From a virus: a stretch of DNA of 37,959 nucleotides. The translations under genes and the position numbers were made by a program. The DNA lies in the IMG/VR virus record IMGVR_UViG_3300013014_000002, positions 1 through 37,959 of that record; one strand, 5' to 3'. Below the pieces are notes generated by a model that saw only the letters and a list, made by a program, of their open reading frames with translations, was not told the DNA's origin and ran no database searches. Each line of letters opens with the position of its first letter. Positions within the stretch are counted from its first letter, which is position 1. Below are positions 15,668 to 37,959 of the stretch, piece by piece.

Positions 15668-17623
15668 CTAGAAAGTAACTTGGTTGGCAGTATATAAGCC
15701 GTTGTCTGATAGTATCTTGTTAGCTTTTGACAGCCTTTTAAGGTGGCGATAGAAGGTTGACTCAGATACTTCTAGCTTTTCCATGATGTGACGGCATAAA
15801 TCTCCTGCCAGCCACTCCTTGCTACCCATCTCTGTCAGGAACCTTTTATCGTCAACCGCCTTGTGCGCACCTGGCTTCTTTAGCTTGTCAGGGTTAAGGC
15901 TAAAGTTCTGGCGGAACAATGGATATCCCCATTGTACTACGAAGGCATCCATAGGTGAGAAGTTGCGGAGCGTGACCTCACAGGTGAAGGTGCGCTCATC
16001 CTCTTCGTGCGGTGTCAAGACCACCAAGCTATCGGGGTTACGCGCAAAAACACCTGACCCGCTAAACCTATCAATCGCCTCGCTGCCACTCTTATTCCCC
16101 TTGGAGAAGTGATGTGACAGGATGATTGACAGATTGTGGCGTGTGGCTAGGTACTCAAACTCGTTCATAAGGCTTGACATGTCTCCGGCTGAGTTCTCAT
16201 CCCGCTCGCCCATGAGCATGTAGTTAGGATCGAGAATGATGGCCTGGTACCCGCGCCCCTCAATCTGCTTCTCGATCATTGGGCGGATTAGAGTGAGATC
16301 GGCAGCATGACCGCGCAGGGTCCAAACATCAAAGTCATCGACCTTCCCTTCCAATCCCTTCGCCTTGATGACATCCGCCAACCTGTTGCGGAAACTCCAT
16401 TCTTGGATCTCGAAATTAATAAACAGCACTCGCGCCTGATGCGTCTGCTGACCCCACCAAGGCACACCAGCATGTAACGAAAGGGCTAAGTCAATCAGCG
16501 ACCATGACTTGTAGGCTTTGCTACCTCCGCCCAGGAGCAACTTGCCTCCTCTGTGCAGCATCCCATCAATCAGAACCTGTGGAGCAGGCATGTCTTCACG
16601 CACCAACTCTGAGTATGATTTGATCGGCGGCCATTCCTCGGTCTTCGGTTTTAGTCCCAATGCAACTGCTGGTTCAATCATCGGTAGTTCATTCATTGTT
16701 CCCCCCTTGCAGAACCATAGAAGGCTCTGTGTTTTGTCATCTCTTTTTGCACCTGGCATTCTTACTGGCTGGCTTGGTTTGAATGTTGCTGGATCGCATC
16801 CTAGCGGAACTAGGAATGCCTTTAACTGATCTAGAACATCCGTACTGGAAGGCATATCAAACCATCCATGCAAACTCTTTCCGCCAGTATCCACAACTGC
16901 CCGCAACTTCATGCGAAACAAATCACGCATGGCTTGGAACACGGCACCCATCTCCGGCTTGGTCAGTACATCCGACTCCACCACCAGGTACCGGCGCACC
17001 TCCACGTTGTCATTAGCTCTGCTAATAGTTCCAGACTTGAATACTGCTCCAGTTGTAAACTGCCCTACTGGTTGTGAAAGCTTCATCCAATCCTCGGCCC
17101 GCTGGAAGTTTTTGGGATGGCTACCACTATCCTTGACCGCTCCTACCCACACAATGTCATCCGGCCTAAACAGCGACAGCATCCCTTGGTAATCATTAAA
17201 GCCATCCAGCTTTTGCGGGCTGGTCTCGTACATGTCCGATGGGTCCCAGCTATAGTGGGTCAAGTACCTTGATTTGTTTGATTCAGCAATCGTTCCGATC
17301 CGGTCAATGATCTCAGTCTCGGCATCCTTCTGGACTGCCAATGTCCTAGCCCCCCCTGTCACTCCAGACATGATGTTAATCGGCCTATACAACGGATCAT
17401 CCAGAATCAACTTGCGCAGTTGCTTGTTAACCAAATCCCTGTGCGCAACGCATGATGTATGCCAGCAAAAGACTGTAGGAACGCTGTCAATGAAGACTGT
17501 GGTATCTCTTACCCTGGTGTGGCTTGTGTGGGTATGTTCACCTGGACACTTGCACAGCCCGTGATTCTCGGACTGCCAGTCAACTACACCTACAATTGAT
17601 TCTGCTTTAGATTGCGAGTTCAT
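15668..17623 (-). CDS. Primase-helicase (AEP-like primase fused to RecA-fold helicase)
   Basis: The protein has 651 residues from the ATG at 17623, chosen because it overlaps the Mom-like stop (ATGA); a GTG at 17641 is possible. Residues ~22-60 have paired Cys/His (GLCKCPGEHTHTSH, FCWHTSC) like a zinc-binding primase head. Residues ~210-255 (RYLVVESDVL, DTGGKSLHGWFD) match archaeo-eukaryotic primase core motifs. A RecA/AAA_25-type ATPase follows: Walker A LLLGGGSKAYKSW (364-374), Walker B AIILDP (461-466) and LSIILSHHFSKGN (498-510). The end (EVSESTFYRHLKRLSKANKI) is a winged helix. It would prime and unwind at the phage origin; no polymerase is encoded. Confidence 0.85.
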   Translation of the reverse strand: MNSQSKAESIVGVVDWQSENHGLCKCPGEHTHTSHTRVRDTTVFIDSVPTVFCWHTSCVAHRDLVNKQLRKLILDDPLYRPINIMSGVTGGARTLAVQKDAETEIIDRIGTIAESNKSRYLTHYSWDPSDMYETSPQKLDGFNDYQGMLSLFRPDDIVWVGAVKDSGSHPKNFQRAEDWMKLSQPVGQFTTGAVFKSGTISRANDNVEVRRYLVVESDVLTKPEMGAVFQAMRDLFRMKLRAVVDTGGKSLHGWFDMPSSTDVLDQLKAFLVPLGCDPATFKPSQPVRMPGAKRDDKTQSLLWFCKGGTMNELPMIEPAVALGLKPKTEEWPPIKSYSELVREDMPAPQVLIDGMLHRGGKLLLGGGSKAYKSWSLIDLALSLHAGVPWWGQQTHQARVLFINFEIQEWSFRNRLADVIKAKGLEGKVDDFDVWTLRGHAADLTLIRPMIEKQIEGRGYQAIILDPNYMLMGERDENSAGDMSSLMNEFEYLATRHNLSIILSHHFSKGNKSGSEAIDRFSGSGVFARNPDSLVVLTPHEEDERTFTCEVTLRNFSPMDAFVVQWGYPLFRQNFSLNPDKLKKPGAHKAVDDKRFLTEMGSKEWLAGDLCRHIMEKLEVSESTFYRHLKRLSKANKILSDNGLYTANQVTF

Positions 17624-18189
17624 ATAAGATCGTACTGCCACTTGATTTTACTGGCATTACTTTGATCTGATCCTCGAACTCGATTATTGCTTTTCCAAGA
17701 TGCAAATTTTGTCATCCCAGCAATCCTCCATCCAGAGGCTTTATAGATAGTACCCAAGTGAACATTTGTATCTTGATAGCTAATAAGTGTTGTAATTTCT
17801 GCAAATGATTTGCGAATTGTTTTAATCATTATTGAAATCATTCTGCTTGCCGTATTTTTAGGTGCATTCTTGGATATAGCCATCCTTCTTAACTCTAAAA
17901 TTTGATACGCATTTTTCATTTTATTTCCAGCAATCGGACTTGACCATATTGCAGTTGCATAATTTATAAAAGAATATTCTGCAACAAAACACGCATATCT
18001 TTTGCTTCGCACTACATTCGACCAATGAATTCTTGGCAATCTGCTATGCCATAATTCATTTAAGCCACAAGCCAAATGAACATTGCATTGGCGTATTTTA
18101 AGTTGGAGCGGCGAGGTGGGAATTGCACCCCCATCTTCACTTTGGAAAAGTGGCGCATTGTTTGTTATGCTATCGCCGCAAAAGTTCAT
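17620..18189 (-). CDS. Mom-like GNAT protein (putative adenine modification)
   Basis: The protein has 189 residues from the ATG at 18189 (GGATGA eight bases upstream; a GTG at 18228 would add 13 residues). Features: NELWHSRLPRIHWSNV (45-59), a GNAT-like strand LELRRMAI (98-105), the acyl-CoA loop APKNTASRMISIMIK (109-123) and SYQDTNVHLGTIYKASGW (137-154). This pattern matches the Mom/XF1762-type family, in which phage Mu Mom carbamoylmethylates adenine to block restriction. It is near a Dam-like methyltransferase, which supports a DNA-modification role. It ends in an ATGA overlap with the primase-helicase. Its first ~25 codons coincide with a tRNA-like fold. Confidence 0.75.
   Translation of the reverse strand: MNFCGDSITNNAPLFQSEDGGAIPTSPLQLKIRQCNVHLACGLNELWHSRLPRIHWSNVVRSKRYACFVAEYSFINYATAIWSSPIAGNKMKNAYQILELRRMAISKNAPKNTASRMISIMIKTIRKSFAEITTLISYQDTNVHLGTIYKASGWRIAGMTKFASWKSNNRVRGSDQSNASKIKWQYDLI
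18104..18179 (-). other. tRNA-like 76-nt fold inside the Mom-like gene
   Basis: Read on the minus strand: acceptor GCGGCGA/TCGCCGC (7 bp perfect), TA, D-stem GCAT/ATGC with an 8-base loop lacking GG, anticodon stem CCACT/AGTGA (4 of 5) with loop TTTCCAA (anticodon UCC, glycine), a poor T-arm around TGCAATT, then T and an encoded CCA. The T-arm mismatch, missing D-loop GG and full overlap with a conserved-looking protein argue against a functional tRNA. It may be a mimic or chance. Confidence 0.25.
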
Positions 18190-18239
18190 ATAAAAATCAT
18201 CCGGCTTTGTTTCAAGTGGTCGACACACGGAGGCACCAG

Positions 18240-18258
18240 ACGCAGGATCTCCCTGCGT
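18240..18258 (-). other. Perfect 7-bp hairpin between Dam-like and Mom-like genes
   Basis: ACGCAGG and CCTGCGT pair around a five-base loop. It lies 28 bases after the Dam-like gene stop. No T-run follows, so it is more likely an RNA-processing or translation-control element than an intrinsic terminator. Confidence 0.5.
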
Positions 18259-18285
18259 ACCATTCGCCGGATTGTTGGAGTTATA

Positions 18286-18738
18286 TCACATTCTGTAACT
18301 ACCCTGCTTCTTATCTCCCTCAAGAATAAAGCAGGCAATATGTCTTCCAGTACCAGGGCCAACAGATCCGTCCTCGGTTGCAATCCATTTAACATCCCTC
18401 AAATTCATAACCCTTGCACCAGCTTCAAGCAACATTAAAACCCACTTATCAATTGGATATACCATAACAACTTTCTTTCCTTTCTTGCTTTCCTCAATAC
18501 ATTTCCTAGCCCAAGCAGTAGCACCCTTCTTCTTTCCTTTGTGAAGGACAACACCAAATGGAGGATTCACATAATTTGATTCACCCCACTCAGCGTCAAG
18601 GCCATCAAAGTTATCTGGCTTTGGATATGGGCAAGGATCAAATGTAAATGCAAACTCATCGTTGAGCCACCTATACAGTTCTGGAGGAGTAAGCCAGTAA
18701 TGCTTGCCATCCTTGCTGTTGCCTTTCTCAAAACTCAT
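18286..18738 (-). CDS. Phage DNA N6-adenine methyltransferase (Dam family)
   Basis: The protein has 150 residues. It would transfer a methyl group from SAM to N6 of adenine in DNA. Motifs: HYWLTPPELYRWLNDEF (N-terminal segment typical of phage Dam-type proteins), DPCPYPKPDNFDGL, and the catalytic NPPF in SNYVNPPFG (58-61), then KKVVMVYPIDKWV. Length is normal for the small phage family. Its ATG overlaps the stop of the zinc-ribbon gene (ATGA). Target specificity is unknown. Neighbouring Mom-like and C5 methyltransferase genes indicate a defence against host restriction. Confidence 0.88.
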   Translation of the reverse strand: MSFEKGNSKDGKHYWLTPPELYRWLNDEFAFTFDPCPYPKPDNFDGLDAEWGESNYVNPPFGVVLHKGKKKGATAWARKCIEESKKGKKVVMVYPIDKWVLMLLEAGARVMNLRDVKWIATEDGSVGPGTGRHIACFILEGDKKQGSYRM

Positions 18739-19286
18739 TTCAACCCCCGCCTCTTCTGCTCCGCTTGGATAGCGGCCTCAATCTTCTCGCATTCGGACAT
18801 AAAGAAGAACTCATCCTTACATTTTGGGCATTGTGTTCTGGTTATGTTAGGTGCGGTGAAAGGCTCGCCGTTCAGCTTGCAAACCGAATCCATCTTGAGA
18901 TCGCCAGTAAACTCAACTGTGTTTGATTTGCGACAAGTTGGACATAACTCAACTGGCTTCTTCAAAGCCTCCAATACCTTGTCAACTCTCTCCACCGATT
19001 GCCAAGGCAAAATAGTGTGTCTGCACCTTGGGCATCTTTCTAGGTCAAGGTCTTTAATAGTTTCCCCGCCTATGTGGTAGTCCTCGACTATTGCCTCGTA
19101 AGTTCCTTTCCAGCATTCTGCACATAAACCTTTAGGCGGGAGCATGCCATTCTCCATAGCAAGCTCGTCCATGCCCTTCAGCATTCTATCCGAAATATCA
19201 GAAGGTCCGTCCTCAAGCCAGCAATCATCTTGGGTTACGCAAAGCGTGTAGGTTTCCTCGCCCCAACGAAACTTTACTTTGTTCAT
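18735..19286 (-). CDS. Zinc-ribbon protein with YgiT/MqsA-type finger
   Basis: The protein has 183 residues. Cys 55/58 and 85/88 in LCAECWKGTYEAIVEDYHIG ... LERCPRC have the spacing and intervening pattern of the YgiT-type zinc finger at the N-terminus of MqsA antitoxins. A second ribbon uses Cys 115/118 (LCPTC) and 153/156 (QCPKC). The N-terminal 50 residues (MNKVKFRWGEETYTLCV) are an extra acidic domain. There is no HTH after the finger and no toxin gene next to it. It sits in an ATGA-linked set with GT9 and Dam-like genes, so a role in nucleic-acid binding or antitoxin mimicry is possible. Confidence 0.7.
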   Translation of the reverse strand: MNKVKFRWGEETYTLCVTQDDCWLEDGPSDISDRMLKGMDELAMENGMLPPKGLCAECWKGTYEAIVEDYHIGGETIKDLDLERCPRCRHTILPWQSVERVDKVLEALKKPVELCPTCRKSNTVEFTGDLKMDSVCKLNGEPFTAPNITRTQCPKCKDEFFFMSECEKIEAAIQAEQKRRGLK

Positions 19287-35994: not shown

Positions 35995-37919
35995 AGTGAT
36001 TTCTGAATTTCAATCGTATCCGGATTGGCAGCAGCCGTGATCTGGCGAATAGCCATTTTATTTGCAACAGAAGCAATCTTGATATTCAATAATCGCCATT
36101 TTTGGTATTTGCGCAGATCGCTTGCAAGCCTCTTTTTAACTGATGTCGGAAGAGTTGCTGGCAAAGCAAATTCAAGCGTAAGCGCAGAACTTGATATGTT
36201 TAGGTTTGGCTGGACATCAACATCGCCAACATCGGTATCACGCTGGATGGATATGGTTGTATCCGTAGAAAAAGAATCGTCAAATATAACCTCAAAATGG
36301 CTTCCATATTTTATGGCAAATGGATCTCCAAAGTTAAAGTCTTTTGTACGGACATATGACTCGTAATCAAATACGCCGGTTGATGTGGTTGTGGTTGTTC
36401 CAGATGTCGTGGTGTAAACCCCATAATCACGATAATCAGCAGATGTAACCTGAGCCGGAGTCTTGTATCCGCTATATCTTGTAATTTGGCCGGTTGTCAA
36501 TTTCATCATCAACCTCAAGCCTTGATCCTGAAAATTTGCTAGTGCAAATTGCATTACATTCGGAGTCCATGTTCCCTCAAATGCGCCCAGCGTTGTGTTG
36601 TAAACAATGATTGTATCATTGTAATCATTTGATTCTGTTGGTACGGCAAGAAAATACCTGTTATCGTAAAAGTGAGCAGTAGCTATTCCTATCTTTGCCA
36701 CATTGATTTCTTGAATGACATTCTTTATTACTTCAGATAGTGGAAGGCCAACAGATGTGAAATCGTCTGCCGTGGATCTTACAAGGGATCTAATTCCGTC
36801 ATCCGAAAGAAAGAATATGTCGCTGTTTACCTGGACGGCAGATCCTTCCGCAACGCATCCTGTATTGTTTGAAATTAACTGAACAGTCCAATCGGCTGCG
36901 GTGGTTGCATCCGGAGGAATTGTTACTTGGAATATGCGCCTCTTTTTAAATACAATAATTCTGTTTTGATAGTATTGAACAATTGCAGTTATCTCGTCTC
37001 CATCATCTGCATTTACAACAATGCTATTGGATGCATCCCAAATTGATGCGTCAAGAATATCGGATGCGTAAAGTGTGTTTCGTTTGCTTGCTGATCCAAC
37101 TCCAAATAATCTATTACCAGTATTTATTAAAAGCCTTAAATCTAACGGAGGAGGGCTAACCGTTGCGGTGGCTATTGCTCCAGATCCATTTCCAATAATT
37201 GTAACTGTAGGCGCGCCAGAATAACCAGATCCTCCGTCAACTACAGTAACGCCAGTAACAGCACCACCAGCAACAGTTGTAATTAAGGTTGGTAATGCTC
37301 CACCCCAATCTGGTCCTGTCACAACTGCCGTTGCGCTGGTATATCCACTGCCTGCCGTAGTTACGGTTATTGCCCTAACTTTACCAGCTTGTCTTGTTGC
37401 AATATCTCCATCATAATAGTAAAGCGCGCCATCCGAATCAGCCATATACATCTTGTCGTTAAATTGAGCCATGCTTACTTTTGCGTCAAAGCTGGTTGAA
37501 AATCCGTCAGCCCATTTTTGCGCTTCATTATTCCATGTTCTTGTAGCTCCAGTTAAATTATCCCATATTTCTTCAATTCTGTGTGGTCCAGTATTCCCGT
37601 CAGAATTAATCGCTGTTCCGTTTGAATTGATTGTATAAAGTTTTCCTTGAATTACTGCAACAAGCCTTTCGGTTTGCGCTGTATCGTAGTATCGCATTCC
37701 GCCAATTGATCCCTCTTGGCTAGTTGCGGATGTGCTAAAACTTGCAACTCCCTTGCGTGTTTCAAGGCTACCCTTTGGAGATAGGGTCATGTTTACTAAT
37801 TGCTGAACTTGATTTTCAGCCAATAGATCAGATTGCAAACCGCTGGCTTGGCCTCCGGCAAAACTCCGGATTCCGTCAAACGCCAGAAGATCGTCTAAAT
37901 TGTCCGAGTAGTACGGCAC
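35991..37919 (-). CDS. Tail tubular protein B / stopper-like, beta-rich
   Basis: The protein has 642 residues from a GTG (37917-37919) with AAAGGAG five bases upstream. Repeated short beta blades (SIGGMRYYDTAQTERLVAVI, KVSMAQFNDKMYMADSDGAL, LINTGNRLFGVGSASKRNTL, VAEGSAVQVNSDIFFLSDDG) suggest a beta-propeller like those of T7 gp12 and P22 gp10. An insertion near residues 190-255 repeats GSGYTSATAVVTG and GGSGYSGAPTVTIIG, the GSGY-type domain seen in many tail proteins. The final ~100 residues (KYGSHFEVIFDDSFSTDTTI) form a further domain. Upstream is the adaptor gene; downstream the core genes. The first codons are repeated at the left end. Confidence 0.75.
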   Translation of the reverse strand: MPYYSDNLDDLLAFDGIRSFAGGQASGLQSDLLAENQVQQLVNMTLSPKGSLETRKGVASFSTSATSQEGSIGGMRYYDTAQTERLVAVIQGKLYTINSNGTAINSDGNTGPHRIEEIWDNLTGATRTWNNEAQKWADGFSTSFDAKVSMAQFNDKMYMADSDGALYYYDGDIATRQAGKVRAITVTTAGSGYTSATAVVTGPDWGGALPTLITTVAGGAVTGVTVVDGGSGYSGAPTVTIIGNGSGAIATATVSPPPLDLRLLINTGNRLFGVGSASKRNTLYASDILDASIWDASNSIVVNADDGDEITAIVQYYQNRIIVFKKRRIFQVTIPPDATTAADWTVQLISNNTGCVAEGSAVQVNSDIFFLSDDGIRSLVRSTADDFTSVGLPLSEVIKNVIQEINVAKIGIATAHFYDNRYFLAVPTESNDYNDTIIVYNTTLGAFEGTWTPNVMQFALANFQDQGLRLMMKLTTGQITRYSGYKTPAQVTSADYRDYGVYTTTSGTTTTTSTGVFDYESYVRTKDFNFGDPFAIKYGSHFEVIFDDSFSTDTTISIQRDTDVGDVDVQPNLNISSSALTLEFALPATLPTSVKKRLASDLRKYQKWRLLNIKIASVANKMAIRQITAAANPDTIEIQKSL

Positions 37920-37959
37920 AATGACTCCTTTAGGCCGAGAACATTTCTTCGATGGTTAG
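37837..37959. repeat. Right copy of 123-bp terminal direct repeat
   Basis: Identical to 1-123 and ends within the end of the adaptor gene, whose stop codon is at 37930-37932. With the left copy it shows that the sequence closes into a circle of about 37,836 bp. Confidence 0.97.

Follow-up and report, generated by a model that had tools for sequence, protein, structure and literature searches.

MqsA (YgiT) of Escherichia coli is described as a single zinc finger joined to a C-terminal HTH-XRE domain, with MqsR as its cognate toxin. Its N-terminal domain (MqsA-N) is a four-cysteine zinc domain with long strands, a short third strand past the last CxxC, and a helix. Passages of PMC2791442 place the zinc cysteines at positions 3, 6, 37, and 40 (an x30 spacing), center the main MqsA-MqsR interface on strand 3, which follows the last CxxC, and assign DNA binding and dimerization to the C-terminal HTH; they also report that MqsA-N lacking the HTH binds and neutralizes MqsR and rescues cells. 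Inhibition of MqsR by MqsA is attributed, in a part of PMC9636575, to a steric block of mRNA binding. Other described proteins that bear comparison with the one studied here are the YgiT-type finger proteins (TIGR03831); ZifS (TTHA0897), a small single protein of Thermus thermophilus, for which the matches in a literature search comprised unrelated papers alone; and Com of phage Mu, a small CCCC zinc protein of 62 aa with one finger, encoded in an operon with mom. Phages also encode antitoxin mimics, of which T4 Dmd is one. The DarTG case is another, described in a portion of PMC11481870.

The window is the whole 37,959-nucleotide stretch of phage DNA analyzed here, and the phage from which it comes is known from environmental DNA. 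Positions 1 to 123 and 37837 to 37959 form an exact direct terminal repeat of 123 bp, which suggests a complete genome; the search tool classed the ends as linear. Among annotated phages, the nearest terminases are those of Akkermansia phages (35 to 38% identity), a hint and no more of a Verrucomicrobiota-like host.

Domain makeup of the finger protein

As the preliminary description of this DNA had stated, an ORF of 183 aa with an ATG start occupies positions 18735 to 19286 on the minus strand. It encodes an N domain (N; residues 1 to 51, 19134 to 19286) followed by two zinc fingers, F1 (residues 52 to 111, 18954 to 19133) and F2 (residues 112 to 183, 18738 to 18953). The CxxC-x26-CxxC unit reported earlier is that of F1 (C55-x2-C58-x26-C85-x2-C88), and F2 reads C115-x2-C118-x34-C153-x2-C156. 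The further claim that F1 has the layout of the MqsA zinc domain holds as a near likeness and not as an identity, with spacings of x26 (F1) and x34 (F2) against x30 in MqsA. The second ribbon that had been noted is present, but it is not of another kind; F2 is the better YgiT-type finger, and the preliminary description had chosen the weaker one.

All four F1 cysteines are invariant in an alignment of 13 sequences, as are all four F2 cysteines across 8 aligned sequences; left out of the latter alignment was L036, whose F2 is truncated and lacks the second CxxC. When 12 relatives were compared with the window gene, dN/dS ranged from 0.00 to 0.32 in N, F1, and F2 (F2 is absent from 4 of them, and one N value was not computable). 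Because of these ratios, the finger ORF is real beyond chance: it is a gene on which purifying selection acts, in each of the three modules. That the gene is a decaying relic without function, as the shortened F2 of L036 and its fusion to the tail of a neighboring gene might suggest, is extremely improbable in view of the same ratios and the invariant cysteines.

Assignment of the fingers to the YgiT/MqsA-N kind of zinc domain, as first proposed from the letters of the sequence, is backed by profiles, by fold, and by curated cutoffs passed in relatives. The best NCBIfam match is TIGR03830 (the MqsA family), with an E value of 1.8e-5 over two stretches, the better one in F2; at 24.5 bits the window protein misses the cutoff of 61.8, and none of the relatives tested passes it. 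With the Pfam MqsA model (PF15731), the window protein has an E value of 0.0043, best in F1, and scores 17.6 against a cutoff of 30. With TIGR03831, the YgiT-type finger model, the F2 of the window reaches 13.9, under the cutoff of 20.2. The suggested search against YgiT-type profiles thus left the window protein under every curated cutoff but carried the F2 of five relatives over that of TIGR03831: L030 (27.5), L042 (28.2), L149 (28.7), L066 (21.9), and L072 (21.8). The F2 of L030 also passes PF15731 (31.1 versus 30). F2 is common to the window protein and these five relatives; in L066 and L072 it stands alone as a gene, whereas in the window it is joined to N and F1. F1 matches the MqsA/YgiT models weakly and falls below cutoff in every relative tested. 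The two fingers are homologous to one another (hhalign probability of 94.8 and E value of 5e-8 for that single comparison).

Structure prediction, which had likewise been suggested as a check, gave an AlphaFold model with a mean pLDDT of 85.0 and a pTM of 0.39, so the model does not fix the relative placement of the domains. For F2, MqsA came first in both Foldseek and VIA-align. The top five Foldseek rows in the PDB are MqsA entries (probability of 0.99 to 1.00; E values of 0.04 to 0.18, none below 0.001). VIA-align superimposed 66 residues of F2 on 3gn5_B (E. coli MqsA-N) with an rmsd of 2.7 and a Z score of 7.7, a value below 8 that may mean merely a common arrangement. ZifS was the second-best fold group (Z score of 5.1), and all groups after it scored below 4. 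The F2 model has the MqsA-N fold with its four-cysteine site, the cysteines being invariant and zinc binding predicted. We regard F2 as very probably of the YgiT/MqsA-N fold and family and F1 as probably so. Searches of the sequences of solved structures with the whole protein, the F2 profile, and the F1 profile gave nothing meaningful. The best PHROGs match to the finger protein had an E value of 0.022, and PADLOC returned only weak matches to finger proteins (E values of 0.03 to 0.05).

The likeness to MqsA ends with the zinc domain. The phage protein has two fingers and an unrelated N domain in place of one finger and an HTH-XRE domain. No HTH model of Pfam or NCBIfam matched it, its C terminus being the F2 helix, and among its neighbors the HTH matches were weak, below cutoff, and confined to the end of the primase-helicase. 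A Pfam scan of ten neighboring and nearby proteins detected no toxin, and MqsR (PF15723), DUF4258 (PF14076), and ParE/RelE (PF05016) had no match in the record; the MqsR control exceeded its cutoff in 0 of 14 genomes, which makes this a weak negative. Within that scope, the earlier observation that neither an HTH nor a toxin gene lies nearby was borne out. When counted without gaps from the last CxxC, a projection made without structural alignment, MqsA residues K47 and R61 fall on W95 and K109 in F1 and on M163 and Q177 in F2. The MqsR contacts of MqsA are not clearly kept in the fingers.

Exchange of modules within a variable genomic slot

Including the window gene, 56 distinct ORFs of the family were collected, counted as distinct by tail and downstream sequence. 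They encode N+F1 (18 ORFs), N+F1+F2 (16), N (13), N+F2 (7), and F2 (2, the genes of L066 and L072). N, predicted from the AlphaFold model to be a beta-beta-beta-alpha domain of about 51 aa, is therefore present in 54 of the 56 ORFs and forms a gene by itself in 13. No match to the N fold was found by Foldseek in the PDB or BFVD at an E value of ≤0.001; the best VIA-align Z score was 4.0, and the top BFVD row was an uncharacterized 66-aa phage protein (probability of 0.98; E value of 0.11). To judge from the model, N has no confident known structural relative, and the absence of a match does not show a new fold. In L046 to L050 and L238 to L255, N alone lies between an HNH-like gene and a radical-SAM-like gene, before a terminase-like gene (labels assigned by eye).

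Since N alone makes up 13 of the 56 ORFs, the protein may owe its main activity to something other than the fingers. Zinc ribbons often serve to bind other proteins. It is conceivable, if doubtful, that the protein is not an antitoxin mimic at all and that N is an effector which the fingers, serving as grips, aim at RNA polymerase, a nuclease, or another host factor. The near constancy of N fits such an arrangement, as does the finding that, after MqsA and ZifS, eukaryotic RNA polymerase subunits of the zinc-ribbon type fill most of the next VIA-align rows; those matches, however, are weak and generic, and the proposed effector is the domain for which no confident structural relative was found.

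Several comparisons reveal how the modules move. L029 resembles an N+F1+F2 gene from which F1 has cleanly gone. N and F2 of the same proteins have diverged to different degrees, as expected if modules are shuffled; in L015, dN is 0.33 for N and 0.11 for F2. The N+F1 copies of L021 to L024 are 95 to 96% identical to the window sequence, and the primase of these loci is 42 to 43% identical, so near-identical copies sit in a different phage backbone. In L036 (positions 1177 to 1689), the cut-short F2 runs in frame into the tail of a neighboring 49-aa gene, and the NGE that the two share probably marks a recombination joint. The finger gene is accessory and horizontally exchanged, and its modules are shuffled between phages. 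No close relative of the window protein, or of its relative in L268, was found among annotated phages; searches of plasmids gave no match to the family, and the bacterial genome contigs scanned held no relative.

The finger ORF overlaps its neighbors by 4 nt on each side, all on the minus strand. Upstream is a family 9 glycosyltransferase gene (GT9, PF01075; 19283 to 20434), and downstream is a gene for a Dam-like adenine methyltransferase (18286 to 18738; PF05869 at 24.7 bits, below the cutoff of 28.1; PADLOC orphan methyltransferase, E value of 8e-8), which is absent in some relatives. The mom gene lies two genes downstream of the finger gene. Further on, the primase-helicase (15668 to 17641) is a single 657-aa ORF here and in L032; many relatives have it as two separate ORFs, and unrelated primases take its place in others (L001 to L005, L008, and L033 were noted).

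The stretch from the glycosyltransferase to the primase-helicase is a variable slot in this phage group. Among 75 newly fetched loci anchored on GT9 (L051 to L125, from the best 80 of 217), the module was present in 13, 10 of which lie on contigs already found through the finger gene. The slot was complete end to end in 65 of the 75; 11 of these held the module, and 12 had a gap of less than 100 nt. The slot also carries Dam, Mom, HNH, GIY-YIG, and PDDEXK-like genes and, as judged by eye, PAPS reductase-, radical SAM-, and QueD-like genes.

The preliminary description had offered, as a second possibility, a zinc-ribbon partner for the DNA-modifying enzymes beside it. A nucleic-acid-binding or structural helper of the adjoining Dam, C5-methyltransferase, or Mom would suit the 4-nt overlap with Dam in the window and the N genes found near methyltransferase-like genes in other phages (L265 to L269). 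However, the gene downstream of the finger gene varies by phage (Dam, Mom, HNH, PDDEXK, GIY-YIG, or primase), Dam being directly next in 9 of the 58 ORFs counted; many copies have no Dam, the stretch read in L261 and L262 shows no methyltransferase, and modules occur at few mom loci. The partnership was not borne out, and we consider a helper role decidedly unlikely.

RNA-like elements around mom

Two putative structured elements lie around mom in the window. The first resembles a three-way junction of about 75 nt and lies ahead of mom (18191 to 18279, minus strand). It occurs 151 times in 134 loci (82 distinct sequences), always on the coding strand, and stands ahead of the next gene in 74 of the 75 glycosyltransferase-anchored loci. 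All six pairs of its hairpin are kept in 81 of the 82 sequences. The outer helix averages 6.94 bp, compared with 5.29 bp when partners were re-dealt (maximum of 5.68 in 500); in roughly one sequence in ten, the best helix found is away from the expected place. The element is conserved, and both its outer helix and its hairpin covary. It matches no Rfam family and may serve as a leader or, for cargo genes, as an insertion hot spot.

The second element falls within the mom ORF, at its 5′ end. There, the Rfam tRNA model scores 36.0 bits, above its gathering score, at 18108 to 18179 on the minus strand, and a tRNA-Gly(UCC)-like fold spanning 18104 to 18179 is read in frame as the N terminus of Mom, as it also is in L001, L018, L021, L030, L043, L154, and others. 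The stretch is 76 nt long, has the anticodon UCC, and encodes its own CCA end; it was present in 89 loci (which can share contigs) as 27 distinct sequences. For 25 of the distinct sequences, standard pairs fill 98.1% of the 525 pair cells, and 7 of 21 pairs have changed on both sides. Four of five measures exceeded all 500 shuffles; for the remaining one, further pair types, the count was 30 of 500. These compensatory changes support a tRNA-Gly-like fold. Of the 18 environmental mom loci tested, among them the window, 13 gave an Rfam tRNA match above threshold, and ARAGORN at its default setting called no tRNA there. Several results tell against the generality of the element: most loci with the stretch were recovered by patterns taken from within it; when the Mom core was scanned for by itself, the stretch was present in 2 of 5 loci, Rfam having no match in the remaining three; and none of four isolate phages with mom had it. 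Just downstream of the N+F1 gene of L269 is a short ORF encoding the peptide of the tRNA-like stretch, with no mom gene in the stretch read.

The fold has no canonical D-loop GG, and its T loop has UGC in place of UUC. The product of Mom is a glycinamide adduct on adenine. Glycyl-CoA is named as a possible Mom donor in a passage of a review (PMC7824862), and staphylococcal tRNA-Gly species that escape EF-Tu and feed cell-wall transferases likewise have no D-loop GG, according to a part of PMC4052509. Together, these points make it testable that a phage tRNA-Gly feeds Mom, and the tRNA-Gly-like RNA is a possible dedicated glycine donor for the enzyme. Among the matches listed in a literature search, which covered no preprints, no paper described a tRNA donor for Mom.

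The proximity of the finger gene to mom raises the question of whether its product activates mom translation, as Com does in phage Mu. Com is likewise a small CCCC zinc protein, the finger gene directly overlaps mom in L021 to L024, and the tRNA-like fold overlying the mom start could need opening. However, Com is a small single finger, and the phage protein joins two fingers to an N domain; its match to the gpCom PHROG has an E value of 8.3. Of 80 loci anchored on mom, 6 had a module, which adjoins mom in 4 of them, all on the contigs of L021 to L024; this list is biased, being the best 80 of 106 ranked by similarity to the L088 Mom and coming from scan patterns drawn from the tRNA-like stretch. 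A scan with the window-type Mom core, itself biased by its small yield of 5 loci, gave 2 with modules, both on contigs already known through the finger gene. Because coupling to DNA-modification genes is not conserved, a Com-like role is very unlikely and was set aside.

Proposed function and implications

The best reading of the finger protein, as we infer it from the comparisons above, is that of an adaptor which lacks an HTH and attaches to a protein of the host, either a toxin or something else. Toxin binding, with the protein acting as an antitoxin mimic, is the leading form of this reading and is put forward tentatively. The missing HTH is no obstacle to mimicry, because MqsA-N alone neutralizes MqsR. 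A toxin-binding half without the regulatory half, an accessory setting, and the shuffling of modules together make toxin-binding counter-defense the best single reading; our reserve stems in part from the MqsR contacts considered above, which the fingers do not clearly keep.

Under the toxin-binding reading, each finger would work in the manner of MqsA-N: its short third strand would dock on a host protein and so block it, with no contact with DNA. The likeliest targets would be RelE/MqsR-like toxins released during infection, and F1 and F2 could be suited to different ones. N would supply a function common to all the combinations, whether dimerization, stability, or an effector surface. The gene would then be counter-defense cargo in a variable slot shared with DNA-modification and homing-type genes. 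In principle this would resemble the DarTG case and T4 Dmd, in which a phage protein neutralizes a host toxin. A broader and unlikely extension is that the constant N and any combination of two MqsA-N-type fingers form a counter-defense kit, with phages gaining, losing, or swapping fingers according to the toxins of their hosts. Phages would in that case use the toxin-binding domain of MqsA, parted from the DNA-binding half, as a modular inhibitor.

If the toxin-binding reading is correct, the family would be a natural, evolving set of toxin inhibitors, a comparison of N, N+F1, N+F2, and F2 would reveal which finger pairs with which toxin, and toxin-antitoxin systems would gain a measurable place in the contest between phage and host. 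If the partners of the fingers are of another sort, N is a hitherto unstudied domain, common to distinct phage backbones and under strong selection. The tRNA-Gly-like fold over mom would make the donor of Mom directly testable.
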